A program made the translations under genes and the position numbers. This document shows, piece after piece, positions 2,129-64,000 of a DNA stretch of 64,000 bases. The stretch covers positions 1,564,175-1,628,174 of the forward strand of contig NC_013385.1 in the NCBI RefSeq assembly GCF_000024605.1, written 5' to 3'. The notes beneath the pieces were generated by a model that had not been told where the DNA came from, did not search any database, and saw only the letters and a list, made by a program, of their open reading frames with translations. How positions within the stretch are numbered: the first letter of the stretch is position 1; each line of letters begins with the position of its first letter. Source of the DNA: Ammonifex degensii KC4 (GTDB lineage Bacteria; Bacillota; Desulfotomaculia; Desulfotomaculales; Ammonificaceae).

Positions 2129-2572
2129 TTACCCTTCCTGGCCGGGAGAAAAAGCCACCAGCTTGGCCGCCAGCTCCTCATACACCGCCTGGGTCTCGGC
2201 CTGATAACGTTCCCACAATTCCTGGGCCCAAAACTCCACTCGATTGGCCACCCCTAGTATGACCACTTCGCGCTGGAGCTGGGCGTACTCGCGGAGATAA
2301 GGGGGGATCAAAACCCGTCCCTGCCGGTCGACTTCCAGCTCTGCCGCCCCAGCAAAGAAAAGGCGGGCGAAAGCCCGGACCTCCGGCTGGGTGAAAGGCA
2401 GCTTTAAAAGCTTTTCTTCTAGCTGGGTCCATTCTGAAGCCGAAAAACCAAAAAGGCAGCCTTCCAGTCCCTTGGTGACCACGAAGCGCTCTCCTAGTCC
2501 TTCGCGCAAACGGGCCGGGATAAAAAGCCGCCCCTTGTTGTCCAGGGTGTGGACGTAGGTCCCGATGAACAC
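2129..2572 (-). CDS. mraZ: Transcriptional regulator MraZ
   Basis: MraZ binds DNA with two AbrB-like SpoVT domains and represses its own division/cell-wall operon. TYVHTLDNKGRLFIP and the second repeat ELEVDRQGRVLIPPYLREY are both visible. I chose the GTG at 2572 (147 residues) because it gives the usual family N-terminus (M-F-I-G-T-Y) and has GGGGAG nine bases upstream. A longer frame opens at 2605, but its extra 11 codons lie inside the TGGGN operator repeats. It is first in the mraZ-rsmH-ftsL-pbp operon. Confidence 0.94.
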   Translation of the reverse strand: MFIGTYVHTLDNKGRLFIPARLREGLGERFVVTKGLEGCLFGFSASEWTQLEEKLLKLPFTQPEVRAFARLFFAGAAELEVDRQGRVLIPPYLREYAQLQREVVILGVANRVEFWAQELWERYQAETQAVYEELAAKLVAFSPGQEG

Positions 2573-2583
2573 CGGCAACTTCT

Positions 2584-2608
2584 CCCCACTTATCCCCACC
2601 TTCACCCA
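2584..2608 (-). promoter_or_regulatory. MraZ operator: three TGGGN boxes at 10-bp pitch
   Basis: Read on the minus strand there are three boxes, TGGGT (2608-2604), TGGGG (2598-2594) and TGGGG (2588-2584), each separated by exactly five bases. This matches the MraZ binding-region pattern known from E. coli and Mycoplasma. It sits 12-36 bases upstream of the preferred mraZ start, so it is probably in the 5' leader and serves for autorepression. No convincing -35/-10 pair was identified upstream. Confidence 0.8.
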
Positions 2609-2766
2609 CCTGAATTCGCCGAGCAGGAAAAAATTCCTCCCGACCCGGTCCCAACAAATTTTGCCGGAGCGTAAATTCCGACCGTGGTCCCTGCAACTGG
2701 GCGTACTAAAGTCCCGGGTGGAAAGACATACTACCTAAAAAAGCGCACCTAAAAGGAGGAGAAGTA

Positions 2767-3150
2767 ATGTACCGTTGGCAGGAAGTCCAGGACCATCTGA
2801 ACCGCCTGCGGCAGGAGATTAACAACATAAGCCAGATGGTGATGCAACTGAGCCAGGCCGAAAGCCAGGCACAAAGTCAACTTGCCCGGCTGAGCCAGAC
2901 TGAAGGCATGAACAGCCAGCAGCTGCAGCGCATTCACCAGATGTGCTTGAGCCTGCACAACGAAATCAATGCTCTGGCCAGCGCCGCTCAAGCAATGATG
3001 CCCGGGGCCACAATGCCCGGCCAGTGGGGAGGCATGGGGGCCCAGACCTGGACCCCGGGAATGGGTTACGGGGGTAGCATGGCTTACCGCACCGAGGAAA
3101 CCGATATCCGCAGCGATATAGGAAACCTGGAGCAAAAACGCGATCTTTAA
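2767..3150 (+). CDS. Hypothetical protein with coiled coil and Gly/Met/Pro-rich tail
   Basis: A 127-residue protein I do not recognise. Residues 1-80 are strongly helical and Gln-rich with heptad spacing, suggesting a coiled coil. Residues about 84-108 are rich in Met, Gly, Pro and Trp (PGATMPGQWGGMGAQTW) and look flexible. There is no signal peptide or membrane segment. A good ribosome site (AAAAGGAGG) precedes the ATG. It is divergent from mraZ, and a clear terminator follows, so it is probably a single-gene transcript. Confidence 0.75.
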   Translation: MYRWQEVQDHLNRLRQEINNISQMVMQLSQAESQAQSQLARLSQTEGMNSQQLQRIHQMCLSLHNEINALASAAQAMMPGATMPGQWGGMGAQTWTPGMGYGGSMAYRTEETDIRSDIGNLEQKRDL

Positions 3151-3160
3151 GGAAACCAAG

Positions 3161-3200
3161 GCGGGGAGGTCCGACAAGGACCTCCCCGCTTCTCTCTTTT
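3161..3200 (+). terminator. Rho-independent terminator
   Basis: A perfect 12-bp stem (GCGGGGAGGTCC at 3161-3172 with its complement at 3178-3189), loop GACAA, then the T-rich TTCTCTCTTTT. It ends the transcript of the coiled-coil protein gene. Confidence 0.93.
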
Positions 3201-3262
3201 AGGGTCGTTCCCTTTTAACTACTTTTGTGTTATTGTATAGGCAAAAAAGGGAGGCGAAGGAA

Positions 3263-3505
3263 ATGATCAAGCTTTTGCGGGAGGGAACCACTTATACCCA
3301 AAAAGACGTCATCGAGATGCTGTCTGAGTTTTCCGCCTTCAAAGACCGGGTGACCAAAAAATTCCGGGAGGTGGCCAAAGAGTTGGAGGGGAAGAGTAAC
3401 GAGCACGAGCTGTGGGTAAACCTTTTCCTCATCGCTAGCGATTACGCCGACGACTGGCTCGCCCGCCGCCAGCGTCAAGAAGTGGCCCTGCAAAAGATCT
3501 CCTAG
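3263..3505 (+). CDS. Hypothetical small cytosolic protein
   Basis: An unrecognised 80-residue, charged, helical protein. The frame is open from a GTG at 3227, but the ATG at 3263 has GGGAGG eight bases upstream and is the likely start. No metal-binding motif, membrane helix or signal sequence is seen. It lies between the terminator at 3.2 kb and rpsT, which has its own promoter. Confidence 0.7.
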   Translation: MIKLLREGTTYTQKDVIEMLSEFSAFKDRVTKKFREVAKELEGKSNEHELWVNLFLIASDYADDWLARRQRQEVALQKIS

Positions 3506-3511
3506 AAGGGA

Positions 3512-3541
3512 TTGCGGCCCCCCGGTCAAGCATGGTAAAAT
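3512..3541 (+). promoter_or_regulatory. Sigma-A-type promoter for rpsT
   Basis: TTGCGG at 3512-3517, an 18-base spacer and TAAAAT at 3536-3541. The -10 box is preceded by TGG, an extended -10 arrangement. The rpsT start is 49 bases downstream. Confidence 0.65.
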
Positions 3542-3589
3542 ACGCACGTCATTCGAGGCGAAACAATCGGAGTACTAGGGGGAAGAGAA

Positions 3590-3859
3590 GTGGCTAAAAA
3601 ATCTTCGCTCAAGCGGTTGCGCCAAATCCGCAAGCGCACCTTGCGCAATAAGATGCTACGCTCAGCCTTGAAGACAGCCATCAAAAAGTTTGAGCAGGCT
3701 TTGGCGCAGGGAGCTCCCGATGTAGAAGAGAAGCTGCGGGCCGCCTTACGAGCCATCGACAAGGCCCGGACGAAGGGTATCTTGCACCGCAACACCGCGG
3801 CGCGCAAGAAATCACGCCTCATGCGTAAGTATAACCAAGCCAAGCTGGTCGCCAGCTAA
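3590..3859 (+). CDS. rpsT: 30S ribosomal protein S20
   Basis: An 89-residue, Lys/Arg-rich, all-helical protein with the S20 N-terminus (AKKSSLKRLRQIRKR) and the conserved KGILHRNTAARKKSRL segment. S20 binds 16S rRNA in the small-subunit body. It starts with GTG behind a GGGGGAAGAG ribosome site. It converges with holA, and the two stop codons share bases 3857-3858. Confidence 0.97.
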   Translation: MAKKSSLKRLRQIRKRTLRNKMLRSALKTAIKKFEQALAQGAPDVEEKLRAALRAIDKARTKGILHRNTAARKKSRLMRKYNQAKLVAS

Positions 3860-4866
3860 CCAGCTCCAGCTAGAAGCCAAGCCTGCCACAGACTGCGTTC
3901 CAGTCCCAGCCAGAAATCCCCTCGCCCACTTTTGAAGGCGGCGTCCAGTTCCACCAACTGTAAGTAAAGCTCTTGGGCCTGCTCGCGGGGAAAGCGGCGG
4001 GCATGGCCTAATATTTTTTTGGCCACCCAGAGGGGTATTTTCCCTTCCTGGGCCAGCTTTTCCTCCCCTCCTCCCTCCGCTAAGATCTCTTGGGCCAGGA
4101 GCAGGAGGCGCAGTTGGCGCAAAAAGAGGGCCAGAACCACTCCCGGAGGTTCTTTTTCCGCTAGCATACGCAGGCGACCAAGGGCTCGTAGGTACTGCCG
4201 CTGGCTCAAATCGTCGGTCACGCGGAAAAGGAGTTCCTCTGGCGGGGGAGTCACCACTTCTTCCACCGAGGAAGGGGTAATTTCTTTCTGCTCCCCGGCA
4301 TAGTTCAAGACCTTTTCCCATTCCTGCCGCAGGAGGGAGAGGTCCTGCCCCACACTCAAGAGTAGCCGAGCGGCTTCAGGGGTGATCTGCTTCCCGGCCT
4401 CACGGGCACGCTTCTGCAGCCAGCGCAAAAGGTCGGAGGGAGAGAGGTAGGTAAACTCCACTATCTTGCCTTTCTCCGCTAGCAGGCGGCAGGCCGGCTT
4501 CTGCCGGTCGATCGGGGCCGTGGTGCAGAAGATGAGACAGGTAGTGGGAGAGGGGTGGCGCAGGTAATCAAGCAAGGCCCTGTCCGCCTGCTTTTTACCC
4601 GCGGCAAAATAAGGAGCGTTATCTACCACCACCAGGCGCCACTGGGCCAGTACCGGTGAAGTGCTAGCCGCGGCGGCCACCTGTTCGCCCGAAGTTTCCT
4701 CTCCGTCCAGCCGGGCAAAGTCGAAGGGGTTGTCCTCCCCCACCAGCAGGGTCCTGAACCAGCGCACGGCCTCCTTCTGCAGGTAGCGCTCCGGCCCCCA
4801 AAAGAGGTAGAGGGGGCGAATCTCCCTCCGCTTCAGCTCCTCTAGCAACTCAAGAAAGTACTGCAC
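3856..4866 (-). CDS. holA: DNA polymerase III subunit delta (HolA)
   Basis: The delta subunit of the clamp loader, which opens the sliding clamp. The 336 residues fit the family. LYLFWGPERYLQKEA at the N-terminus occupies the place of a degenerate Walker A. The C-terminal part has the family's LLFRVTDDLSQRQYLRAL and QLYLQLVELDAAFKSG stretches. The GTG start directly follows the stop of the upstream thiamine-binding-like gene, with GGGGG before it, so the two are probably co-transcribed. Confidence 0.93.
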   Translation of the reverse strand: MQYFLELLEELKRREIRPLYLFWGPERYLQKEAVRWFRTLLVGEDNPFDFARLDGEETSGEQVAAAASTSPVLAQWRLVVVDNAPYFAAGKKQADRALLDYLRHPSPTTCLIFCTTAPIDRQKPACRLLAEKGKIVEFTYLSPSDLLRWLQKRAREAGKQITPEAARLLLSVGQDLSLLRQEWEKVLNYAGEQKEITPSSVEEVVTPPPEELLFRVTDDLSQRQYLRALGRLRMLAEKEPPGVVLALFLRQLRLLLLAQEILAEGGGEEKLAQEGKIPLWVAKKILGHARRFPREQAQELYLQLVELDAAFKSGRGDFWLGLERSLWQAWLLAGAG

Positions 4867-5172
4867 TTAGCTTTCCCCCAGCTCGCGCTTTACTGCCGCC
4901 ACCTTGCCTTCCAGGCTGAGTTCTTTGTCCCGGCGCTCATCGATCTTCACGGTAGTCACCACCCGCTGCACTCCCGCCGCAAAGGGGGCCAAGTGCATCT
5001 TCCGCACCAACTCTAGAATCTCCTCCAGCTCCCCCTCCACCAAAGTCCCCATGGCGGTTATCTCGTACTTAAGGCCGCTTTCCCGGACGATCTTCACGCA
5101 CTCGGCGACGTAACGCCCCACGCTGGGCGAACCCGTTCCTAGAGGAACCACCGAAATCTCGGCCACTACCAC
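4867..5172 (-). CDS. MTH1187-family thiamine-binding-like protein
   Basis: A 101-residue ferredoxin-like-fold protein of the MTH1187/YqgV family. Typical stretches are EISVVPLGTGSPSVGRYV, a central EITAMGTLVEGELEE and VVTTVKIDERRDK. Family structures bind thiamine-like ligands, but no pathway role can be read here and no thiamine operon is adjacent. It starts with GTG behind GGAGGGAG, immediately upstream of holA. Confidence 0.85.
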   Translation of the reverse strand: MVVAEISVVPLGTGSPSVGRYVAECVKIVRESGLKYEITAMGTLVEGELEEILELVRKMHLAPFAAGVQRVVTTVKIDERRDKELSLEGKVAAVKRELGES

Positions 5173-5231
5173 TTTTCTCCCTCCCAGAACTGAGCTTCTC
5201 CTTGCGTTTCTTAAATTTTATCACGTCCCGA

Positions 5232-5265
5232 AAAAGCTTTGCGCCCTCTCTTTAAGAGAGGGCGC
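5232..5265 (-). terminator. Rho-independent terminator
   Basis: A perfect 12-bp stem, GCGCCCTCTCTT, with a one-base loop (5241-5265), followed on the minus strand by AAAGCTTTTT. It lies just after the stop of the small winged-helix gene. Confidence 0.85.
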
Positions 5266-5280
5266 ACCCGATGGGAAAGC

Positions 5281-5574
5281 CTAACTTAACTCTTCCCACT
5301 TGGAGCGGTAGAAGGAGCAAAATTCCTCGCCCAGCTTGGTCAGGCTGCAAATCTTGCTCTTGCCCTCGGCGGTCACGTCTACCAAACCCAAAGCGTAAAG
5401 CTGCATCACCACGTGATCCAGGACCGCCCGTTTCACCCGGGCCATAAGCGAGAGCTCCTCTTTGTTCATGCGCCCACCGTCGCCCAAGGCGCGCAGCACC
5501 CGCCAGGCTTCTTCTGGGAGACGGTGGTTGACATAGGAGAAGTACTCGGAAAGAGGAGTCGCCAGGCTCAGCAA
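5281..5574 (-). CDS. Small winged-helix-like DNA-binding protein
   Basis: A 97-residue protein whose order of segments (EAWRVLRALGDGGRMNKEEL, LDHVVMQLYALGLV, SLTKLGEEFC) resembles a compact winged helix-turn-helix of MarR/ArsR type. No effector domain or metal-binding Cys cluster is visible. The TTG start has AAGGAGGG eight bases upstream, and a terminator follows the stop. Target and ligand are unknown; the DNA-binding call is inferred from the fold pattern. Confidence 0.65.
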   Translation of the reverse strand: MLSLATPLSEYFSYVNHRLPEEAWRVLRALGDGGRMNKEELSLMARVKRAVLDHVVMQLYALGLVDVTAEGKSKICSLTKLGEEFCSFYRSKWEELS

Positions 5575-5666
5575 AGGATCTTCCCTCCTTCAACCAAATA
5601 ATTAACTTTTCGGCTTTTATTATGCGCCAGTTTTTTGTTTTTTATAAAACCGCAAGCTTAGAAGAC

Positions 5667-5713
5667 CCGTCTCCTTCAGGGGACGGAACGATCACGGCGG
5701 CCTGGCCGCTTTT
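5667..5713. other. Two adjacent hairpins, possible relic of an IS200/IS605-type right end
   Basis: The first hairpin has an 8-bp stem (CCGTCTCC/GGGGACGG, one G-T pair) and a TTCA loop at 5667-5686. The second is GCGGCC-T-GGCCGC at 5697-5709, followed by TTTT. The first resembles the ACCCC-TTCA-GGGGT hairpin at the right end of the tnpB element at 28.5 kb. It lies between the rmlD-like gene and the small winged-helix gene, with no transposase nearby. It could instead be a terminator acting on the plus strand. Confidence 0.3.
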
Positions 5714-5770
5714 GCGAGGAAGTACGGTAAGCTTTGACACGCAGATGCCAATAAGGAACTCGTCCTTCCC

Positions 5771-6607
5771 TTAACGGCGAGCCAAGTACCGTTCCAGAGC
5801 GTCCTCCCAGGAAGGCAGGCTGTAGCCCAGGTACTCTTTGAGCGGGAAGGGATCCAGTACCGTGTAGCGGGGGCGGCGGGCCGGACGGGGAAAATCCTCG
5901 CTGCGACAGGGGATGACGTTAGCCTTGATGCCCGCCAGGCGCACGGCGCTGCAGGCCAGCTCGTACCAGGAGGCGGTTCCCGCGTTGGTCACGTGAAAAG
6001 TCCCCCTTGCTCCGGCCAAGATAAGGTCGGTGATGGCCCGGGCGGCATCGGGGGTGTAAGTGGGAGAACCGTACTGGTCCTCTACCACTTTTATTTCTCC
6101 TTCGGTTTCCGCCAAGCGCAAGATCATGCTCACGAAATTGCGCCCGGTGCCAAAAAGCCAGCTAATCCGTACGATCAGATAATCCCCGCCTTCCTCCCTT
6201 ATCGCCGCCTCCCCCCAGTATTTGCTCTCTCCGTAGCGGTTTATAGGGCGAGGAGGATCGTAAACGTGGTAAGGCTCCCCTTTTTCTCCGTCGAAAACAT
6301 AGTCGGTGCTTATGTGTACCAGCTTAGCCTCACTGGCAGCGCAAAGAGAGGCCAAATACTTAACCGCTAGACCGTTTACCAGAAAGGCCCGCCGGGGATC
6401 CTCCTCGGCCCCGTCTACATCGGTGTAAGCGGCGCAGTTGACCACCACCCGCGGCCGGTACTCCCTGAGGACTTCCGCCACCGCCTTGCGCGAAGTTATA
6501 TCTAGCTGCTGCCGCGCCAGCCCGATCACGTCAAAGCCGCGTTCCTCCAACTCTTTAACCATCGCCCGCCCTAGGCGTCCTGCGGCTCCCGTTACCAGCA
6601 CCCGCAC
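5771..6607 (-). CDS. rmlD: dTDP-4-dehydrorhamnose reductase-type sugar-nucleotide reductase (RmlD family)
   Basis: A short-chain dehydrogenase of 278 residues with the Rossmann motif GAAGRLG at residues 7-13, the STDYVFDG segment and the catalytic YGESK Tyr-x-x-x-Lys. In the dTDP-rhamnose pathway RmlD reduces dTDP-4-dehydrorhamnose with NAD(P)H. No rmlA, B or C is adjacent, so the sugar is uncertain; the family also contains MAT2B-like and other SDR reductases. The gene is alone between mqnD and a hairpin-rich spacer. Confidence 0.85.
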   Translation of the reverse strand: MRVLVTGAAGRLGRAMVKELEERGFDVIGLARQQLDITSRKAVAEVLREYRPRVVVNCAAYTDVDGAEEDPRRAFLVNGLAVKYLASLCAASEAKLVHISTDYVFDGEKGEPYHVYDPPRPINRYGESKYWGEAAIREEGGDYLIVRISWLFGTGRNFVSMILRLAETEGEIKVVEDQYGSPTYTPDAARAITDLILAGARGTFHVTNAGTASWYELACSAVRLAGIKANVIPCRSEDFPRPARRPRYTVLDPFPLKEYLGYSLPSWEDALERYLARR

Positions 6608-6619
6608 AAAAATCCCTCC

Positions 6620-7435
6620 TCATTCGACCCACTCTAAAGGTGGAAGATGGGGAATGATCCCTTGGCGGTGTCCTTCCTCCAGCAAAAGCCTCACTGCCTC
6701 TTTTCCTTTCGGCCCCAAGTCGAGCGTCCAGGAGTTGACGTACATCCCTACAAAACGATCGGCCTCTTTTCGATCCAGTCCCCGAGCAAAGGAAAGAGCA
6801 TAGTTTAGGCTTTCTTCCCGGTGGGCCAGAGACCAAGCAATGGCCTCGCGTAGAAGAGAAGACAGAAGGGAAGCTTTTTCCTGGTGGCGCCGGTGCAACA
6901 CGTTCCCTCCCAGAGGCAGGGGAAGGCCGGTTTTCTCTTGCCACCATACTCCCAGATCGACAACAAGTCTTAACCCCTCACGGGCATAGGTCAACTGTCC
7001 TTCGTGAATCAAAAGACCCGCCGGTACCTCTCCTGACTTGACCGCTTCACCTATGCGGTCGAAAGGAAGAGTGACCGTCTGCACCTTCGGGGACCAGAGC
7101 TTGAGAGCCAAGTAAGCCGTAGTCCACTCCCCCGGAACGGCCACCAAGGAGGGGGTTTCCCTTTCCTCTTCCCGCGTCACCACCACGGGACCGTAGCCAT
7201 CTCCTACACTGGCCCCGCAGGAGAGCAAGAGATAGTGCCGGGCTACGTAAGGATAGGCGTGAAAGGATATGGCCGAAAGGTCGTAAATCCCCTCCCTGGC
7301 CGCCCGGTTAAGCGTTTCGATGTCGGCCAGTACGTGCCGGAAAGTAAAACCCCGGGTATCGATCTTCCCCAGGCTTAGAGCGGCAAACATAAAGGCGTCG
7401 TCCGCATCCGGGCTGTGAGCCAAGGTAAGCTCCAA
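6620..7435 (-). CDS. mqnD: MqnD-type 1,4-dihydroxy-6-naphthoate synthase
   Basis: A periplasmic-binding-protein-fold enzyme of the MqnA/MqnD group. The signatures LAHSPDADDAFMF at the N-terminus and LSCGASVGDGYGPVVV fit MqnD, which forms 1,4-dihydroxy-6-naphthoate from cyclic de-hypoxanthine futalosine in the futalosine route to menaquinone. The 271 residues fit. The other mqn genes are not in the window, so pathway completeness cannot be judged. The TTG start has AAAGGAG upstream. It is divergent from ldh. Confidence 0.85.
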   Translation of the reverse strand: MELTLAHSPDADDAFMFAALSLGKIDTRGFTFRHVLADIETLNRAAREGIYDLSAISFHAYPYVARHYLLLSCGASVGDGYGPVVVTREEERETPSLVAVPGEWTTAYLALKLWSPKVQTVTLPFDRIGEAVKSGEVPAGLLIHEGQLTYAREGLRLVVDLGVWWQEKTGLPLPLGGNVLHRRHQEKASLLSSLLREAIAWSLAHREESLNYALSFARGLDRKEADRFVGMYVNSWTLDLGPKGKEAVRLLLEEGHRQGIIPHLPPLEWVE

Positions 7436-7570
7436 GGACTGCTCGCTCCTTTCCTTAAGGCTCGCTTTAACAGGACTTCTACAAAACTTGTCTTAGCCCT
7501 TCTCAGAACAGAGGGAATGCTGCAGCACGAGGAGAAACTAAAGGTAAACGGCATAAAAGGGGGACTTCTT

Positions 7571-8500
7571 ATGGCTAAGATCGCCATCATCGGAACGGGA
7601 TCGGTAGGAGCTACTGCCGCTTACGCGCTTATAGCCAGCGGGCTGGGAGAAGAAATAGTGCTCATAGATGTAAACCGCGCTAAAGCCGAAGGAGAAGCCC
7701 TAGACTTGGGAGACAGCACCGCCTTCACCACCCCGGTTAAGGTCTATGCAGGGGACTATCCGGATGCTAGCGATGCCGATCTTATTATCTTCGCCGCTGG
7801 GGCCAACCAGCGCCCCGGGGAGACACGGCTCGATCTCACCCAGCGCAACGTGGCCGTGCTGAAAGAGGTGGCAGGAAAGCTGGCTGTTCACTGGCGGGGA
7901 GGCATTTTGCTAATGGTGACCAACCCCGTGGACGTACTGACCTATGTAGCTTCGCGCCTACTCGACCTCGATCCCCAGCGAATTCTGGGCACAGGAACTA
8001 TTTTAGACAGCGCCCGCTTCCGCTACGCCCTAAGCCAGCATACCGGGGTGGATGCCCGCAACCTGCATGCCTACGTCATCGGCGAACATGGAGATACGGC
8101 CGTTCTCCTCTGGAGCCGGGCCACCGTGGCCGGCATACCCTTGGAAGACTTTTGCCGCCAGCGGGGTTTGAACCCGCCGGATAAGGAGCAGATCGACCGG
8201 TACGTGCGCCAGGCCGCCTACCGCATCATCGAGCGCAAAGGAGCCACCTATTACGCCATTGGGCTCGGGATCCGCCGCCTCTGCGAGGCTATTCTCAAGA
8301 ACCAGCACAGCGTGCTGACCGTCACCGGCCCCGTGGAGGGAACCTACGGCTACAAGGGCGTGGCCTTCAGCCTGCCCACCATCGTGGGTAGAGAGGGACG
8401 GCTTTTCTCCCTCGAGCTCCCCCTCTCCCCTCAGGAAGAAGAGGAACTCAAGCGCTCGGTGGATACTCTTCTGAAGGCGCAAGCCGAGGCAGGCTTTTAA
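7571..8500 (+). CDS. ldh: L-lactate dehydrogenase
   Basis: An NAD-dependent LDH/MDH-superfamily enzyme of 309 residues. It has the NAD motif GTGSVGATAAYAL and the catalytic HGD triad region (VIGEHGDTAV). The substrate-specificity loop AGANQRPGETRLDL carries Gln where malate dehydrogenases have Arg, which supports lactate. The ATG at 7571 has AGGGGG upstream. The frame extends upstream to 7415, but that part overlaps the divergent mqnD and lacks family similarity. It converges with the next gene, sharing stop bases. Confidence 0.95.
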   Translation: MAKIAIIGTGSVGATAAYALIASGLGEEIVLIDVNRAKAEGEALDLGDSTAFTTPVKVYAGDYPDASDADLIIFAAGANQRPGETRLDLTQRNVAVLKEVAGKLAVHWRGGILLMVTNPVDVLTYVASRLLDLDPQRILGTGTILDSARFRYALSQHTGVDARNLHAYVIGEHGDTAVLLWSRATVAGIPLEDFCRQRGLNPPDKEQIDRYVRQAAYRIIERKGATYYAIGLGIRRLCEAILKNQHSVLTVTGPVEGTYGYKGVAFSLPTIVGREGRLFSLELPLSPQEEEELKRSVDTLLKAQAEAGF

Positions 8501-8880
8501 GAACCTACCTCGGCCACGTAGTACTCTAGGAAGGTAAGGAGTTCTTCTTTGAGCTTATTCTGCTGGTAAATGCCCCAGCCGGCCGTGAGCATGAGGGGAG
8601 AAAAGATGAGCACCCCTGCTGCTCCTGCCGCTGCCTTGTCGAGCCATCGAGTGATCTGGGTGGAAACTTCCACCCCTTCTTCGCGTGGGCGCAGGTGAAC
8701 GGTAAAGGCGGCGGACATGCCTGCCACCTGCGCCCACGTCCCTCCCTTGCGGGCCTGCACTACCACCCCGGTCTCGTCCCTGAGTCTCTGGGTCTCGAAA
8801 CCCCGCCTTTTGAACCACAGCTCCACCGCCTGCCCCAAGTGCTCAGGGGTAAGCATAGTCCGGTAAATGCGTAGGCTCAC
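8497..8880 (-). CDS. Hypothetical protein with one membrane segment
   Basis: An unrecognised 127-residue protein. The first 85 residues look like a small soluble alpha/beta domain (FKRRGFETQRL, GTWAQVAGM, FTVHLRPREEGVEV). A single hydrophobic segment follows (about 88-107, AAGVLIFSPLMLTAGWGI) and then a short charged helix. It is probably membrane-tethered. It is encoded on the opposite strand to ldh with overlapping stops and lies 21 bases downstream of queA, so it may share the queA transcript. Confidence 0.7.
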   Translation of the reverse strand: MSLRIYRTMLTPEHLGQAVELWFKRRGFETQRLRDETGVVVQARKGGTWAQVAGMSAAFTVHLRPREEGVEVSTQITRWLDKAAAGAAGVLIFSPLMLTAGWGIYQQNKLKEELLTFLEYYVAEVGS

Positions 8881-8901
8881 CTTTTAGGCCACCACCTATC
8901 T

Positions 8902-9933
8902 TCAAAGGATTAACATGGCATCCCCGAAGCTGAAAAATCGGTAGCGCAAGCGCACGGCTTCCGCGTACGCGCGCAGGATCTTTTCCCTCCCGGCAAAAGC
9001 TGCCACTAGCATGAGGAGCGTGGAGCCGGGGAGGTGAAAGTTGGTCACCAAGGCGTCTACCACTTTAAAGCGGTAGCCGGGGTAGATGAAGAGGTCGGTA
9101 AAGCCCCTCCCAGCCCGGACGCGCCCTCGTTCGTCGGCCACCGACTCCAGGCAGCGGACCACCGTGGTTCCCACCGCCACTATTCTTCTTCCCTCTTCTT
9201 TGGCCCGGTTTACGGCCTCCGCCGTAGCCTCCGGGAGATGGTACTCCTCCGAGTGCATGCGGTGGGCGGTTATGTCCTCCTCTTTGACCGGGCGAAAGGT
9301 ATCCAGCCCTATGTGCAGGGTGAGGGTTACCACTTCCACTCCCTTTTCTTGAAGCTTTTGTAAAAGCTCTGGGGTGAAGTGAAGTCCGGCCGTCGGCGCG
9401 GCCGCCGAGCCGGGCTCAGAAGCGTAGACCGTCTGATAGCGCTCCGGCTCAGCCAGCTTCCTTTTTATGTAGGGAGGGAGGGGAATCTCCCCTAGCTGGT
9501 GCAGCAAGGCGAAGAAATCTCCTTCGTAAGTAAACCGGACGAGCCTCCCTCCACTTTCCAGGCGGCTCAGGACCTCCCCCCGCAAGAGCCCCCCACCGAA
9601 CACTATCCGGGTGCCCTCCGGCACCCGGCGGCCGGGGCGGACCAGTACCTCCCACAAGTCCGGTTCCAACTGCCTCAGCAATAAGACCTCCACTTTCCCC
9701 CCGGTGTCCTCTTTCACGCCGTAAAGGCGCGCCGGCAAAACGCGGGTGCGGTTGAGCACCAGTACGTCCCCGGGCACTAGATACTCCGGCAGGTCGCGGA
9801 AGAGCCGGTGCTCGAACTCCTCCCGGTCGCGGTAAACCACCATGAGCCGCGACTTATCTCTTTCCGGCAAAGGTTCCTGCGCAATGAGCTCCTTGGGCAG
9901 ATAGTACTCGAAATCGCTGCGTTTAAGTGCCAC
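8902..9933 (-). CDS. queA: tRNA preQ1(34) S-adenosylmethionine ribosyltransferase-isomerase QueA
   Basis: QueA transfers and isomerises the ribosyl group of SAM onto preQ1 in tRNA wobble position 34, giving epoxyqueuosine. [32 protein letters not shown]-like [11 protein letters not shown] and [15 protein letters not shown] are family signatures. I chose the GTG at 9933 (343 residues), which has GGAGG ten bases upstream; the frame is also open to a GTG at 9954. QueH, the next enzyme of the pathway, is encoded in this window at 52.6 kb. Confidence 0.96.
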
Positions 9934-9981
9934 CGCCTTTTTAACCTCCGGCACTATTTTAACACTCCCTACCCATCTTAA

Positions 9982-57899: not shown

Positions 57900-58574
57900 T
57901 CACAGGTCAAGATAGGCAAAGAAGGCCAGCCATAAGAGCAGAAGGGCTAGGAAGCTTACGGGCACGGGCTGGCGGCAGAAGACCTGGCGCAAAAGCTGCG
58001 CGATGGGAGCCAAAGGGAAAAGCCACATCAACTTCCCCAGCCAGAAAGGCAAGCAGTCGAGGGGAACGAAGGTACCGCTAAGAAAGCTCATGGGGATGAG
58101 CAGGAACTCGCTGATGAGGGCCTGATCGTCAAAAGAACGCAAGCATAGGCCCAGGAAGACGCCAAAAGCACCACAGGTCACCGCTACCGGAACCAGCCAG
58201 AGAAAGATCTCCCCGGGGATCCGGAGTCCCGGGACGACGACCCAGGAGAGAAAGAGCACCACGAGGCCGGTAAAGAAGCTGCGCAGAGCGCCGGTCAGGA
58301 CGAACCCCCACCACAGGGAAAAGGCACTTATGGGAGTCAGGCGGTAGGACTCGAAGGTTTGAAGGTGTAGGCGGCTGTAGAAGAGCCGGATGATGAGGAA
58401 GGAGACAGCGTTGTTGAAGACCGCCAGGGCCACCACCCCTGGCACCAGAAACTCCAGGTGGCTCACCCCGCTAGGAAGAGAAACGCGCAGAACGCAACCT
58501 CCTCCACCGCCCCGAACCTGCCCACCGACGCCATTGCCGTCACCTGGGGCCGCACGTTTTTCTATCCCCACCAC
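57900..58574 (-). pseudogene. ABC-2 type permease, 5' part missing or frameshifted
   Basis: From FLVPGVVALAVFNNAVSF onward the frame has five or so membrane helices and the ABC-2 pattern (YRLTPISAFSLWWGFVLTG, FLLIPMSFLSGTFVPLDCLP). The first 40 codons are Gly-rich (GGQVRGGGGGC) and unlike a permease; a normal member would have another membrane helix there. An alternative frame just upstream encodes VEEVAFCAFLFLAG and ends at a TGA near the join, so a frameshift at a GGGG run is possible. No partner ATPase is adjacent. It may be a decayed gene or an unrelated short permease. Confidence 0.6.
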
Positions 58575-59713
58575 TGTCGCTTTTTCTTGATTAGCAAGTA
58601 GATAAAAAAGGGGGACCCCATAAGCGCGGTGATAATTCCTACCGGAATTTCCGTCGGCGCAACGAGGGTCCGCGCCAGGGTATCAGCCAGAAGTAGAAGC
58701 ACCGCACCCATGAGGCAGGAACAAGGGATCAGAAACCGGTTGTCGCTGCCGACAAGCATCCGGCAGATGTGCGGCCCCACCAAGCAGACAAACCCAATGA
58801 TGCCGGTGAAGGCCACCGTAGCTGCAGCAGCAAGGGTAGCTAGACTCAGGGTGTAAACCCTCAGGCGCCCCACATTTATCCCTAAGCTGGCTGCCACCTC
58901 CTCCCCGGCCCCCAGGACGTTGAGGTCCCAAGCACGAAGGCACAGTCCGGCCATGCAGAGCAGCACTACCGGGGTAAGCAGCATCACCGTCCGCCAGTCC
59001 GCTCCCCAAAAGCCGCCCATCAGCCAAACAACAAGTTCTTTCAGAGCCTCGTTGTTAGAAACGTATTTCAAAAGCGAGACACCAGCTTGAAAAAGGTAAC
59101 CAATGGCCACCCCGCCTAAAACCAACGTCTCGGGCGACATCCCCTTAAACCGCGCTAGGGAGAAAGCCAGGAGCGTGGTCAACCCTCCAAAAATGAAGGC
59201 GTTGGTAACAATGAGCCACCGCGATACTTCAAGGTAACTCCCGCCCGCCAGGCCTGTCCCCAGCACAATGGCCAAAGCCGCCCCAAAAGCCGCACCACTC
59301 GAAAGACCTATCGTGTAGGGAGAAACCAGCGGGTTGCGCAACACCCCCTGCATCACTGCCCCAGCCCCCGCCAAGCTTATCCCGGTAATGGTGGCCAGCA
59401 GAATGCGGGGAAGGCGGATTTCCCAAACTACCGTCTCGGCAAGGTCGGTTACCGGAACTGTCTTTATACCCAGGTGTGCCAGTATCACACGCCAAACCTC
59501 AGGCACGCTTATTCCCGCTGCACCCACAGAGGTAGCAACCAGAGCTGTGGCCATAACCAAGCCAAGCAGAACCGCTACCCCAAAAACCTTACGGCCGATA
59601 TTACGGGAATAAGTGGCTTTTATCGCGGCGACCTGACTTTCCCAAGCCATACTGCTCATCTCAGCAGTGGGTAAACCCATACGCTCCTGAGCCCCCATAA
59701 ACTTCTTAGGCAC
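58562..59713 (-). CDS. FecCD/BtuC-family ABC transporter permease
   Basis: A 383-residue, ten-helix permease for siderophores, heme or corrinoids. Family stretches are LPRILLATITGISLAGAGAVMQGVLRNPL (in parts RLPRILLATI, AGAVMQGVLRNPL), GVSLLKYV, LGINVGRLR (the coupling loop) and FVCLVGPHICRMLVG. The GTG at 59713 lies eight bases past the DUF2149 stop; later in-frame ATGs are possible starts. Its ATPase partner is probably the gene at 62.1-62.9 kb, separated from it by the CobN-like, ExbB-like and DUF2149 genes. Confidence 0.92.
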   Translation of the reverse strand: MPKKFMGAQERMGLPTAEMSSMAWESQVAAIKATYSRNIGRKVFGVAVLLGLVMATALVATSVGAAGISVPEVWRVILAHLGIKTVPVTDLAETVVWEIRLPRILLATITGISLAGAGAVMQGVLRNPLVSPYTIGLSSGAAFGAALAIVLGTGLAGGSYLEVSRWLIVTNAFIFGGLTTLLAFSLARFKGMSPETLVLGGVAIGYLFQAGVSLLKYVSNNEALKELVVWLMGGFWGADWRTVMLLTPVVLLCMAGLCLRAWDLNVLGAGEEVAASLGINVGRLRVYTLSLATLAAAATVAFTGIIGFVCLVGPHICRMLVGSDNRFLIPCSCLMGAVLLLLADTLARTLVAPTEIPVGIITALMGSPFFIYLLIKKKRQWWG

Positions 59714-59720
59714 CCCGTCC

Positions 59721-60038
59721 CTACTTTGTAATCATAAACATTCTTCCTGTCTCGGGGTCTTTGAAAACTGTACCCACTTTTTCATACATTTTTCCTTCTC
59801 CTCGAGTTTCAATGAGATCATGTCGCACTTCTGGAAGCTGTGAAACATCCCTTCCCAGTCTTATGTCCACTCTCTCCCCTTTGTGAGCAAGGTTGATATT
59901 CCAATAGAGGGCCAGTGCTAGCATCAATCCACAGGCAAAGACTAGCATGGCATCTACAATGTTAATTGCTCCTTCTAGAGGATTAACGTCCCCTGCTGCC
60001 TGTAGCAACCTCCTTGTGCTCCGTAACCTTCCCTTCAC
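59721..60038 (-). CDS. DUF2149 protein with an ExbD-like membrane segment
   Basis: A 105-residue protein. Residues about 19-48 read NPLEGAINIVDAMLVFACG then hydrophobic to Trp 48, a single membrane helix with an Asp at 29. This recalls the N-terminal helix of ExbD/TolR/MotB, where one Asp carries protons. The rest (about 49-105) is a small soluble domain. The GTG start follows GGAGGTG and overlaps the ExbB-like gene by 56 bases. DUF2149 has no assigned function; a stator role beside the ExbB-like channel is my inference. Confidence 0.85.
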   Translation of the reverse strand: MKGRLRSTRRLLQAAGDVNPLEGAINIVDAMLVFACGLMLALALYWNINLAHKGERVDIRLGRDVSQLPEVRHDLIETRGEGKMYEKVGTVFKDPETGRMFMITK

Positions 60039-60678
60039 CTGCCAACACCTCCAGCAGAGATTCCATAATCGTTTCTAGAGTACTCAGGTAATCCTCATAC
60101 CACCTCTTCCGCACTTGAGAGATAACAAAAGCAATCGCTGCTGCGGCCAAACCAATCACCGTAGCATCGAAAGCAGTTAATAACGATTCTGCTAGTTTCT
60201 GTATATTGCCTTGGCTTAGAGCAATTAGGCCCGGTCCCAGAGGGATAAGGGTTGCCATTAAACCCAACATAGGACCCAGGCGAGCAACAGTATCTGTACG
60301 GCCCGTAATCTTAGCGTAATGCAATTCCTCCTTAGTTAATAGCTGCCGGGCAAGGGCTTGAAGTGATGCCACGGGCAGGTCATGGTGTGCTAAAAGTTCG
60401 TTCAGCGCATTTTTCTGGCGTCGGGTAAGTTCACTTTGAGAAACTAGGTTCTTGATTTTTTCGGGATCGCGCTCCTTCCGGAATTGCTGGAGTAGGTCAG
60501 CAATATTGACTATAATTTTTCTTCCATGCCGCTCTCTTAGACACTCTACCACCAAACTTCCTAACTCGGCCACGGAAAAGACGATGAAAAACAGCAGCAC
60601 GGCAATGGTTGGTGCCAGTAAGCTGTAAGAAAATACGTGCATTAGCTCTCGCAGAAACTTTAAACTCACCGAGTCCAC
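59983..60678 (-). CDS. MotA/TolQ/ExbB-family proton channel protein
   Basis: A 231-residue protein with three membrane helices: about 15-38, then after a cytoplasmic region of about 90 residues, 130-155 and 165-190. The conserved block reads VARLGPMLGLMATLIPLGPGL and LLTAFDATVIGLAAAAIAFV, the TolQ/ExbB signature. These proteins use the proton gradient to drive a partner across an envelope. Gram-positive cells usually lack TonB-type systems, which makes its place beside an importer notable. It overlaps the DUF2149 gene by 56 bases. Confidence 0.93.
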   Translation of the reverse strand: MDSVSLKFLRELMHVFSYSLLAPTIAVLLFFIVFSVAELGSLVVECLRERHGRKIIVNIADLLQQFRKERDPEKIKNLVSQSELTRRQKNALNELLAHHDLPVASLQALARQLLTKEELHYAKITGRTDTVARLGPMLGLMATLIPLGPGLIALSQGNIQKLAESLLTAFDATVIGLAAAAIAFVISQVRKRWYEDYLSTLETIMESLLEVLAGEGKVTEHKEVATGSRGR

Positions 60679-60680
60679 CT

Positions 60681-62021
60681 TTATGCCTCCCTCGCGTATT
60701 CTAGGTATCTTTTGCCCGCACCAAAGAAAAAGGGCACTAACAGTCCGATAGCAGCAACTAAAGGTGAGTTATTCTTCTTCGGCACAGCAAGCTGTTCGCA
60801 GGTTTCTACCTCGAAAACACGCGGTTCTGGGCTTTCTGACACACCTCCTTCTGGGGTGCTTGCGCTCTTACTAGCTCCTGTGTTTTTTGATTTGGCAGAA
60901 GGTACTTGTGGTGCTTTTTCTACTTCTCCTTCAGCTGCGGTTTTTTGCCTGGTATCTGCAACGCTGCTCTCCGCTAGTTTCGTCCCAGAAGCGTCCTGGC
61001 CGAAGGCATCTGGAACACCTCTACCAAGATCTTTGCTACCACCTATAAATTCATCTAACCCACCGCCGCCAAATTTTTCCAGAGCCGCCCTCAGACCTCG
61101 TAGGTAAGTATATTCCAGCGGCAAATCGTCTTGATCCAACACATCTTCCTCACTATAAGCGTGGACAAGTACATTACACCCCTTGAGCAGTTCCTTAAAA
61201 ATTCCGGGCTGGTTAGCTCCCCAGTTCGTTTCAGAATAAGCATTACCTATCCGATTTATAAACTGATCAGCTATTTTTTCTGGATCTTGGGCAGAATCTA
61301 TTACCCTTACCCCTGAACCGTATTCCCCCACGGGAGGAGCAAAAATCCCGGACACCGCCAGTGCACCGGCCTCCTTGTCCTGATGACCTGCAGCAAGCAA
61401 CTTCCGCACTGTCACCACCCACCGCGTGGCGACATAGTTTGATTCTAAGGGATCCTTCCCTTTCACGAGAAGCCCAGCCTTTTCCAGGGGAACAAGCGTA
61501 GCGTCTAATGCCGACTGCAGTTCAGGATAAGCCGAGACAATGCTCTGATAAGAAGACGCCAGAGCCAGGCGGTACGCCCTGTCGAGCAAAACGATCTGGT
61601 TTTGGAAAAGATCGCGAAACGAGCCTGTAGCCACCATTACTATGTCAATACGCGGCCGACCCAGTTCACCAAGACTTACCAATTCCAGACCGATTACTTT
61701 TCCCGAAAGATCCCACTTGGGCCTAACCCCGAGTAGGGCAAGGGCAAACGAGACCATTGGCCCTTCTTTTCCTGTCGTCTCCATACCCCACAACACCGCT
61801 GCCACCCGCGAAGGATAACGGCCTTTTTCTGTTCTAAACTTGTTTATGGTTTCACGGGCCATTTTCTCGCCTGTCGCGTATGCCTCCCGAGTAGGATACC
61901 TTTCGGGGTCCAGGGCCACTTTAACTCTTCTGTCAAACTGTTGGCCAAGGGCAAGCGAATCAAAGCCGGAAGCAAAAAGGCAGATTGCCAGTAGCACCAA
62001 GAACCACTTCCAGCCACGCAA
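60681..62021 (-). CDS. Exported CobN-like protein with C-terminal membrane anchor
   Basis: About 446 residues from a TTG at 62021, ten bases after AAAGGAGG; the frame is open to 62051. A signal peptide (WKWFLVLLAICLFASGF) leads to a region resembling the C-terminal part of CobN/magnesium chelatase H: RYPSRVAAVLWGMETTGKEG, LALLGVRPKWD, ELGRPRIDIVMVATGSFRDLF and LDQDDLPLEYTYLRGL. A low-complexity linker rich in Ser, Ala, Glu and Lys (about 345-405) ends in one membrane helix and a basic tail. CobN inserts cobalt in corrin synthesis in the cytosol; an exported partial copy more likely binds a metal or tetrapyrrole. Confidence 0.88.
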   Translation of the reverse strand: MRGWKWFLVLLAICLFASGFDSLALGQQFDRRVKVALDPERYPTREAYATGEKMARETINKFRTEKGRYPSRVAAVLWGMETTGKEGPMVSFALALLGVRPKWDLSGKVIGLELVSLGELGRPRIDIVMVATGSFRDLFQNQIVLLDRAYRLALASSYQSIVSAYPELQSALDATLVPLEKAGLLVKGKDPLESNYVATRWVVTVRKLLAAGHQDKEAGALAVSGIFAPPVGEYGSGVRVIDSAQDPEKIADQFINRIGNAYSETNWGANQPGIFKELLKGCNVLVHAYSEEDVLDQDDLPLEYTYLRGLRAALEKFGGGGLDEFIGGSKDLGRGVPDAFGQDASGTKLAESSVADTRQKTAAEGEVEKAPQVPSAKSKNTGASKSASTPEGGVSESPEPRVFEVETCEQLAVPKKNNSPLVAAIGLLVPFFFGAGKRYLEYAREA

Positions 62022-62099
62022 GAGTGCATTTCCTCCTTTCCAACAGCTCACCGCCCTTTAAAAAGAACCACGTCTTGGGTATGACCACGAAAAGGCGTT

Positions 62100-62924
62100 T
62101 TACACTTGTGCACCCACTTTACGCAGTTGCGGGTCCTTGTCTTGTGCCGGGATACCCACCGGTGCTACCGGTATCACCTGCAACCCCCACTGAGTTTCGC
62201 TGACTACCGCCTCAACGCCGTAGGTCGCACGAATGTTTTCCGGCGTGAGTACCGCTTTGGGGCTTCCTGCTGCGAAAATACGCCCTTCACACAAGAGTAT
62301 AAGGCGGTCGGCAAAGCGGCTAGCTAGATTGAGATCGTGCAATACCATCACTACTAGCCGGTCTTTGCTTGCAGCAAATTCCCTTATGAGACTAAGCACC
62401 TCAAGCTGATAACGGAGATCTAGCGTGGCTGTTGGTTCATCTAAAAGAAGCACCTCCGGCTCCTGAGCTAGAGCACGGGCAATGAGAACTTTTTGCCTTT
62501 GACCGCTCGACAGTTCTTCGAGCTGCCGCTCCGCCAGATCGGTCAGTCCCAAAAAGGCAAGAGCGCTGGTTACCACCGCTAGATCGCGCTGGCTTACCCC
62601 CCAGGTCAGGTGGGGGCGACGACCATGGAGCACCGCTTCGAGCACGGTACAAGGAAAAGGGCTTCCCGTACCCGGTGGGGGAACATAACCCAGGTATCGT
62701 CCAACTTCCCGTCCAGGCAGTGAAGCGAGGTTCTTCCCATCCAGGAGAATTGCCCCCACACGGGGCTTTAGCACCTTCGCTAGACATTTGAGCAGGGTTG
62801 ACTTGCCGGAGCCATTCGGCCCCACGATACCGAGCACTTCGCCGGCTCGCACTTTAAAGGTGACATTTTCTAGCGCAGGTATACTACCGTACGCAAAGGA
62901 CACTTCCTCGACTTGTAAACGCAT
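62100..62924 (-). CDS. FecE/BtuD-type ABC transporter ATP-binding protein
   Basis: A 274-residue ATPase of an iron, heme or cobalamin-type importer. Walker A is VGPNGSGKSTLLK, the Q-loop region YLGYVPPPG, signature LSSGQRQKVLIARAL, Walker B VLLLDEPTATLD and the switch His in MVLHDLNLA. The tail (IRATYGVEAVV) is typical of this subfamily. It is the first gene of the group with the CobN-like, ExbB-like, DUF2149 and FecCD genes. No substrate-binding protein gene is visible downstream. Confidence 0.93.
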   Translation of the reverse strand: MRLQVEEVSFAYGSIPALENVTFKVRAGEVLGIVGPNGSGKSTLLKCLAKVLKPRVGAILLDGKNLASLPGREVGRYLGYVPPPGTGSPFPCTVLEAVLHGRRPHLTWGVSQRDLAVVTSALAFLGLTDLAERQLEELSSGQRQKVLIARALAQEPEVLLLDEPTATLDLRYQLEVLSLIREFAASKDRLVVMVLHDLNLASRFADRLILLCEGRIFAAGSPKAVLTPENIRATYGVEAVVSETQWGLQVIPVAPVGIPAQDKDPQLRKVGAQV

Positions 62925-62992: not shown

Positions 62993-64000
62993 TTACTGGA
63001 TAATTATCGCTTGCTTTACCGGGTCCCAGGAGACTTGGAAGCCCAGCGCCTGGGCCAGATACCGGTACGGTACCATTACCCGCCCATTCACAATCTCTGG
63101 AGCAGCATCCATGGGAACATAAATCCCTTGCAGCACGTACCCCCTCTGCCCTACCTTAAATTGGACAACCCGCTTGCCCGTGAGAAGGGTCACAGTGAAG
63201 TCTTCGCTGTTCCAGAAAATCCGCTCCTCAGTCAGCCCAACCGCGTAAGCCAGATAGCGCACTGGCGCATAGATCCGCCCTTCTTTGATGTAGGGAGCTA
63301 CGTCCATCTCCCTTTCTTCGCTGCCCACCTGGTATCTAGTACTCCCGACGGTGAACACTACCTTCCTCTTTATCTCCTCCGGCGCGGGAGTTATGCAACG
63401 CGCTAGGACACAGGTCAACTTATTGAGTGACGGGGAAAAGAGGTCTTCCGTTTCGGAAAGAGCGCTACCGCTTACTTCTAAGGTGATGTCCCCTTCAGGC
63501 ACTGCCCGTTCTACCGTCAGGAGAATATCCTCCACGGCAAGCGTGCTTCCCACTTGCTCCCCAGCTTGCTTTTCGACGGGTGTAGCACTGGAAAGCTTCA
63601 CCGGGATAACGAGCGTCCGATCGTTGTCGTCAAGCTTGATTCCGGTAGCATCGAGCTCCAGATCCCCAGCAGTCACCTTCACAGTGGGTATTCGCGCAAA
63701 ACGTACCCCTGAAGGCAGGGTAAGCTTCAAGACCGCCCGATTCCCAGCAGCATCGCGGGTCCGTAAAGCCCCAACCAGGTTCTCCTGAATGGTGATTGTA
63801 CCCACCGGTTGCTCCTGTACCCCGATGCGGACCGTGCTGCCTGCGGCAGAAACCGCCACCGGAGCCTGAACGTGGGCCACGGTCACGGTGCTGCTGACGC
63901 CGGGCCCCTTGACGGTTACGGTCAGCTCCTCAGGAGCGCCAAGAGCAAGGTCCACGGTGGCGTTTTTGAAACAGAAGACCGCGCGTTCCGAAGAAGCGGC
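62993..64000 (-). CDS. Surface protein with copper-amine-oxidase-type stalk domain (5' part outside window)
   Basis: The frame is open to the window edge, so only the C-terminal 335 residues are seen. Residues up to about 215 are beta-rich repeats of adhesin or Ig-like type (STVTVAHVQAPVAVSAAGST, PTVKVTAGDLELDATGIKL). The last 110 form a stalk domain (EREMDVAPYIKEGRIYAPVRYLAYAVGL and a second half AAPEIVNGRVMVPYRYLAQALGF, cited in part). It is presumably exported and wall-linked. It may be the ligand-capturing part of the neighbouring transporter, but this rests on position only. Confidence 0.85.
   Translation of the reverse strand, partial: AASSERAVFCFKNATVDLALGAPEELTVTVKGPGVSSTVTVAHVQAPVAVSAAGSTVRIGVQEQPVGTITIQENLVGALRTRDAAGNRAVLKLTLPSGVRFARIPTVKVTAGDLELDATGIKLDDNDRTLVIPVKLSSATPVEKQAGEQVGSTLAVEDILLTVERAVPEGDITLEVSGSALSETEDLFSPSLNKLTCVLARCITPAPEEIKRKVVFTVGSTRYQVGSEEREMDVAPYIKEGRIYAPVRYLAYAVGLTEERIFWNSEDFTVTLLTGKRVVQFKVGQRGYVLQGIYVPMDAAPEIVNGRVMVPYRYLAQALGFQVSWDPVKQAIIIQ

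Follow-up and report, generated by a model that had tools for sequence, protein, structure and literature searches.

A predicted exported half-chelatase encoded with ExbB-like and DUF2149 genes in a BtuFCD-type operon of Ammonifex degensii KC4

The stretch of DNA analyzed here (the window) comprises 64,000 nucleotides of the Ammonifex degensii KC4 chromosome (NC_013385.1, positions 1,564,175 to 1,628,174) and contains a gene, referred to below as the half-chelatase gene, whose product corresponds to part of a class I chelatase (Table 1). The longest frame of this ORF, which ends at 60681 on the minus strand, encodes 456 amino acids from a GTG codon at position 62051. The TTG codon at position 62021 was nevertheless considered the better start, because the GGAGG motif ends 10 nt upstream of it and the homologue from locus L052 starts at the equivalent residue. 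Residues 46–336 of the 456-residue frame matched positions 718–974 of the 1090 positions of the CobN profile PF02514 (E 2.4e-56).

The N-terminus displayed a predicted signal peptide with the h-region FLVLLAICLFASGF and the c-region ALG/Q, and its end was conserved among the homologues as ALGQ or AFGQ; the predicted export of the half-chelatase rests on this hydropathy, cleavage motif and conservation. The chelatase domain was followed by a linker of 74 residues (Ser 15%, Ala 14%, Gly 14%) and by a single C-terminal hydrophobic helix, PLVAAIGLLVPFFFGAG, with a short basic tail. In the structure model, 213 residues reached a pLDDT of at least 90 and the folded part was mostly confident, whereas the linker and the anchor remained below 50. 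When the model was compared by Foldseek, the C-terminal regions of CobN, ChlH and HmuS were matched with a probability of 1.00, with 9fpc ranking first (E 5e-21; TM-score over the full query, 0.54), and 6ys9 and 7c6o were also found. The initial annotation had described an exported protein with a partial CobN-like domain (here about 290 residues), a Ser/Ala-rich linker, one membrane helix, a TTG start and a lower GC content, and each of these features was borne out.

Table 1. Features of the half-chelatase locus (positions in the window).
Feature	Position	Strand	Description and basis
Half-chelatase gene	60681..62021	-	446 aa, TTG start; Pfam PF02514, conserved homologues, structure model and Foldseek
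Shine-Dalgarno GGAGG	62032..62036	-	10 nt before TTG; read from sequence
Signal peptide (predicted)	61944..62021	-	Residues 1-26, probable cleavage ALG/Q; hydropathy and ALGQ/AFGQ conservation
Class I chelatase domain V	61044..61913	-	Residues 37-326, including a 48-residue insert; profile, tree, Foldseek, alignment
Low-complexity linker	60822..61043	-	Residues 327-400, Ser/Ala/Gly-rich, fast evolving
Juxtamembrane motif RVFEV	60807..60821	-	Residues 401-405; motif count in anchored partner proteins
C-terminal membrane helix	60714..60764	-	Residues 420-436, then KRYLEYAREA; hydropathy, anchor region matched by profile in other proteins
ExbB/MotA-like gene, HmuU-like	59983..60678	-	231 aa; PF01618 E 4.3e-10; Thr143 and Thr173 conserved in 31 relatives
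DUF2149 gene, HmuV-like	59721..60038	-	105 aa, one membrane helix with invariant Asp29, C-terminal hairpin; PF09919 E 8.2e-9
BtuC/FecCD-type permease	58562..59713	-	PF01032 E 1.8e-93
ABC-2 type permease	57900..58574	-	PF01061 E 3e-18
BtuD-like ATPase	62100..62924	-
Exported surface protein, C-terminal part	62993..64000	-	763 aa in full; Cu_amine_oxidN1 domains

In HmuS of Bacteroidota, an experimentally shown dechelatase, domain V forms the strictly conserved docking face for PPIX, and turnover is abolished when the essential His-538 of domain III is replaced (PMC12583661). Unlike HmuS, the half-chelatase corresponds by its fold only to domain V (about 290 of more than 1400 residues). Domains I–IV and VI are absent according to the PF02514 coverage, and so are the HFG(T/A)HG motif of domain III with the equivalent of the catalytic His-538, the head/neck heme site and, since domain IV is missing, the methionine-rich insertion. 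The domain V motif LSLDHxxEFMGG, which contains His-1209, reads VLDQDDLPLEYTYLRG in the half-chelatase, with Asp in place of His, as is also the case at position 1209 in most of the full-length Bacillota relatives. Equivalents of Glu1016, Gly1068, Arg1071, Asp1072 and Asp1208 were retained, Ser1067 was replaced by Thr, the Trp/Tyr1202 loop was missing, and Gly-Gly 1215–1216 was changed to Arg-Gly or Pro-Gly in the half-chelatases. The initial annotation had named the signal peptide and the pocket residues as decisive; the former is present and the latter are partly, not wholly, gone.

Catalysis by the half-chelatase appears very unlikely, for metal insertion as for removal, because the essential His is missing along with the whole of domain III and the domain V loop has changed. 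Of the proposal that the domain had been reused outside the cytoplasm as a receptor or metal-insertion module, the external reuse was retained and metal insertion was not; a receptor role is possible and close to the reading favored below. With a remodeled pocket and no domains I–IV, and hence no catalytic His, the half-chelatase is inferred to be a non-catalytic head. Its possible ligand would be a tetrapyrrole or a partner protein, and tetrapyrrole binding may have been lost through the altered Trp1202 loop and Gly-Gly turn.

In a tree of domain V, the window protein was grouped with those of L060 (Desulfovirgula thermocuniculi), L051, L052 and L056 with support of 100/100. L060 entered this tree as a shifted segment of its half-chelatase, and its placement is independently backed by 81% domain identity to the window protein. 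A wider group (95/97) added the full-length proteins of L072, L037a, L043 and L073 together with the half-chelatases of L073 and L074, while the CobN encoded in the operon of the window protein fell in a separate CobN clade (100/99) that excluded the latter. Furthermore, the 48-residue insert was common to the half-chelatases, L072, L037a and L073 and absent from CobN and the other HmuS-like proteins. The domain was 46% identical to that of L072, 30% to Bacteroides HmuS and 32% to the CobN of its own operon. By these sequence criteria, the half-chelatase belongs with exported, anchored HmuS-like proteins and not with CobN, which corrects the partial CobN of the initial annotation. An external chelatase had also been regarded as unusual, the subunits being cytosolic. 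This did not stand, as the HmuS of Bacteroidota is itself anchored in the membrane, probably on the periplasmic side (PMC12583661, PMC13227078), with a signal peptide or N-terminal helix and a C-terminal membrane helix (PMC13227078), and many Bacillota encode exported full-length relatives.

An exported full-length HmuS-like ancestor would have lost domains I–IV and VI and kept its type of anchor. The monophyly of the two half-chelatase subclades was unsupported (47/0, long branches), and both one and two truncation events are compatible with the tree. An artefact or a frameshifted CobN was ruled out by the intact homologues, the protein's own signal peptide and the separate clade. A piece of an aerobic cobaltochelatase was also ruled out, as CbiX is present in the genome and a profile search of it for one partner subunit, CobT (PF06213), gave no match. 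A second CobN gene (L008, G000:C1:1184000-1199000, approximately 3420-9935) is broken up by an insertion that resembles IS607 elements and carries TnpB-like and MerR-type serine recombinase genes; a short tandem repeat within coding sequence (VDIHTYN) lies at the break point. In both G173:C36 and G409:C273, several CobN-family genes share the contig, which suggests that chelatase-like genes have expanded in particular lineages of this order.

The half-chelatase gene is separated by 2 nt from the ExbB-like gene, which overlaps the DUF2149 gene. These adjacent genes, the strongest clue at the locus, had not been used in the initial annotation of the half-chelatase. Upstream lie the genes of the BtuD-like ATPase, the Cu_amine_oxidN1 protein and, beyond the window, two BtuF-like binding proteins and a cytosolic-type CobN of 1293 aa; the BtuC-like and ABC-2 permease genes follow downstream of the three-gene cassette. 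The cassette has a GC content of 49.1% (57.9% in the window), the lowest among all the 2.3-kb stretches of the window, and a GC3 of 42–47% compared with 53–73% in the neighboring genes. A similar CobN/binding protein/BtuC/BtuD/ABC operon without the cassette was found in the same genus (L085) and in the same family (L086 and L087), and in D. thermocuniculi the cassette lies exactly between BtuD and the next ATPase, an arrangement in which it looks like an addition to a BtuFCD-type operon. It may have been acquired by horizontal transfer; the GC dip was less pronounced in L060, and L051, L052 and L056 showed none. No cobalamin riboswitch was found in the operon, which gives corrinoid specificity no support of that kind.

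The operon's CobN (L007:12168-16049, minus strand) is encoded with the BtuFCD-type and ABC-2 genes and probably has a role other than aerobic B12 synthesis, since CbiX is present in the genome and CobT is absent. Cu_amine_oxidN1 domains, possibly a cell-wall stalk, were found in the surface protein at the window's end and in one binding protein of the operon (window 62993-64000 and L007:7168-11026); in L056 and L074, SBP_bac_5 proteins encoded next to the cassette carry them as well.

When the half-chelatase domain was compared with that of D. thermocuniculi, a dN/dS of about 0.26 (0.134/0.506) was obtained, with a higher value for the linker; the domain is under purifying selection. Together with the three further close homologues (L051, L052 and L056), signal peptide, domain and anchor are intact in five genomes of at least two families. 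A single-sequence scan of the genome contigs matched no homologue, whereas an alignment-based scan found two loci. In a second subclade (L073 and L074), the whole C-terminal half of the profile was retained, and ExbB and DUF2149 adjoin the half-chelatase in L074. In L073, the half-chelatase gene comes directly after a full-length HmuS-like gene (2313-4895, minus strand) that is truncated by the end of the contig and in which GCRG replaces the catalytic GTHG.

Of the 299 genomes sampled from the phylum, 23 encoded DUF2149, and two kinds of ExbB/DUF2149 locus were distinguished. In class A, the partner is a full-length exported HmuS-like protein of approximately 1300–1800 residues, usually with a gene that we take to be HmuT-like from its position beside ExbB and not from a comparison with Bacteroides HmuT. 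In class B, whose ExbB and DUF2149 are closer to those of the window, the partner is either a half-chelatase (L060, L051, L052 and L056) or an unrelated exported protein with PF00174-like (Mo-pterin-like) and Big_2 domains. Loci with such anchored Big_2 and PF00174-like proteins were L044, L046–L050, L054, L055, L057–L059, L077, L078, L080 and L081, with ECF/CbiQ-type transporters near some of them (L057 and L077). The half-chelatase gene is linked to ExbB and DUF2149 in L051, L052, L056, L060 and L074, and the surrounding importer varies. More generally, ABC or ECF importers of several types were found near ExbB/DUF2149 loci: in some other genomes the cassette lies beside peptide/nickel-type ABC genes, and in L042 the same set occurs with a full-length HmuS in the order BtuF-BtuD-BtuC-HmuT-ExbB-DUF2149-HmuS.

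Of 33 C-terminally anchored proteins from these loci, 28 carried a short motif, [YF]E[VILMF], in the 45-residue segment preceding the last helix (0.94 expected with shuffled residues). The set includes related sequences, so that the count is not one of independent events, and spans three kinds of extracellular domain. These proteins had been picked by position or by anchor profile, and in L038, L073, L075 and L079 no ExbB was seen beside them on the contig. The matches lie 13–23 residues before the helix, and the partners carrying the motif include full HmuS, half-HmuS and the unrelated Big_2/Mo-pterin-like proteins. Additionally, a profile built from the half-chelatases independently matched Big_2-type proteins of other genomes at their C-termini (E 1.6e-5 to 4.8e-4). 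TonB carries its own short motif, the D-box, directly outside the membrane helix, and binding to the ExbD dimer there proceeds by strand recruitment (PMC10907165); [YF]E[VILM] is reminiscent of this D-box, an analogy that offers a lead.

Asp29 in the membrane helix of DUF2149 was invariant in 32 sequences. Nevertheless, DUF2149 was rejected as an ExbD homologue by sequence, with nothing detectable in PDB, Pfam or profile comparison; the comparison with the ExbD profile gave a probability of 1.5%, and its best local alignment paired the two membrane Asp residues. The low-confidence structure model of DUF2149 showed a C-terminal hairpin and no ExbD-like domain. No match to ExbD (PF02472) was obtained in the genome and no Omp85 was found in it (99.6% complete); therefore, the motor is proposed to work at the cytoplasmic membrane or the cell surface. 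SLH proteins are present, and the host appears to lack an outer membrane. The only other gene of the MotA/ExbB family, located elsewhere in the genome and with a stronger PF01618 match, probably encodes a flagellar stator.

The architecture and export features of the half-chelatase, its homology, the cassette, the operon context and the shared anchor motif form the established part of this description. On this basis we favor, tentatively and with slightly less than even confidence, a half-chelatase that would be a tetrapyrrole- or partner-binding head, moved by an ExbB/DUF2149 proton motor and aiding a BtuFCD-type importer, with no metal chemistry of its own. It would be a type I membrane protein, with the signal peptide followed by an extracellular domain V, a flexible linker, the juxtamembrane [YF]E[VILM] and the C-terminal helix, and the ExbB-like and DUF2149 proteins would be its small proton-driven motor. 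DUF2149, with its membrane Asp, may take the role of ExbD, and its C-terminal hairpin may accept the motif as a beta strand, as ExbD accepts the TonB D-box. Proton flow would then move or re-orient the domain V head. We infer that the head binds heme, a corrinoid or a loaded binding protein, and that it helps hand the ligand over in the direction of the importer. Metal chemistry would be left to the cytosolic CobN of the operon, after import. The identity of the ligand is uncertain, because genomes of the same family have the operon without the cassette and the cassette lies elsewhere with peptide/nickel-type ABC genes.

Five other explanations were weighed: that the protein is a subunit of a split enzyme or, with decreasing likelihood, a sensor, a passive receptor, a nonfunctional remnant or an active enzyme. 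It is unlikely that the exported domain V acts as a non-catalytic subunit, with a second exported chelatase half or a full-length HmuS-like protein as the partner that it regulates or completes. The gene order of L073, with its altered GCRG motif, would fit such a pair, but the only other CobN-family genes of the genome are the cytosolic-type CobN, whose sequence lacks a signal peptide, and the interrupted copy, and no full-length exported partner lies beside the half-chelatase in L051, L052, L056, L060 or L074. Less probable still is a surface sensor or receptor that would relay outside ligand binding through the anchor to ExbB/DUF2149 for signaling instead of powering transport. Quite different extracellular domains do share the same anchor and motor; however, importers are the constant neighbors, and no kinase, sigma or anti-sigma gene was noted in the annotated stretches beside the cassette. 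A passive receptor or store, holding a tetrapyrrole or binding protein near the importer with the motor genes as unrelated passengers, would agree with the BtuFCD-type operon context and with a low-GC cassette that could have arrived as a block. This is improbable given the linkage of the half-chelatase gene to ExbB and DUF2149 in five loci despite differing importers, and given an anchor motif common to the partners.

The two remaining explanations are both very improbable. A functionless, degenerate remnant of an HmuS-like gene would explain why two thirds of the protein and some pocket residues have been lost, but it is already disfavored, since five genomes from at least two families have kept the signal peptide, domain and anchor intact and dN/dS is well below 1 in the domain and higher in the linker. 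An active external chelatase or dechelatase, removing or inserting metal, could be argued from the homology to HmuS, a shown dechelatase (PMC12583661), and from the retained Arg1071, Asp1072 and Asp1208 equivalents; against it, the domain III His, the head/neck heme site and domain VI are absent, and CobT was not found in the genome.

The favored reading, a motor-driven binding head, shares features with several known systems. Bacteroidota already provide examples of external class I chelatases whose genes accompany ExbB and DUF2149 (PMC12583661, PMC13227078, PMC10434189), and the half-chelatase resembles HmuS and the hmuYRSTUV system in its exported, anchored class I chelatase fold, its ExbB-like (HmuU) and DUF2149 (HmuV) genes and its importer context; in contrast, no HmuY, HmuR or HmuT is present here and the host lacks Omp85. 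With CobN and ChlH it shares the fold of the C-terminal region (9fpc, 6ys9 and 7c6o), and the operon has a cytosolic CobN of its own. Unlike CobN, which is cytosolic and exceeds 1100 aa, the half-chelatase (446 aa) is predicted to be exported and anchored, belongs to a separate clade with a 48-residue insert and occurs in a genome without CobT. As in TonB-ExbB-ExbD and TolA-TolQ-TolR (PMC10907165, PMC12215075), there is an ExbB-like protein with conserved Thr residues, a small partner with an invariant helix Asp and a third protein, with one helix and a short motif close to the membrane on its outer side, but the anchor helix is C-terminal and not N-terminal, no outer-membrane target is available, and DUF2149, unlike ExbD, has neither detectable homology nor an ExbD-like domain. 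The two binding proteins, BtuC-like permease and BtuD-like ATPase of the operon correspond to BtuFCD/FecCD-type importers. Importers of this type normally work without an ExbB-type motor in the cytoplasmic membrane, and ExbB-type motors are best known for work at the outer membrane and, as MotA, in flagella.

A wider proposal, which is rather doubtful, is a modular proton-driven surface machine, an "inverted TonB", in bacteria without an outer membrane. In it, ExbB-like and DUF2149 proteins would drive C-terminally anchored proteins through [YF]E[VILM], and exchangeable heads (full HmuS, half-HmuS or Mo-pterin-like/Big_2) would energize the hand-over of ligands to ABC or ECF importers. In a limited search of the open-access literature, no description was found of the truncated form, the shared anchor motif or the same motor with non-chelatase heads, which is weak evidence that these are new. 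HmuU and HmuV were called uncharacterized in the papers on HmuS, and the proposal, if true, would give them a testable role. It would also mean a new use of the proton motive force at the cell surface, by a motor in an Omp85-free genome and through a motif common to several unrelated surface domains, and that the porphyrin-facing part of a chelatase can persist without the catalytic part.
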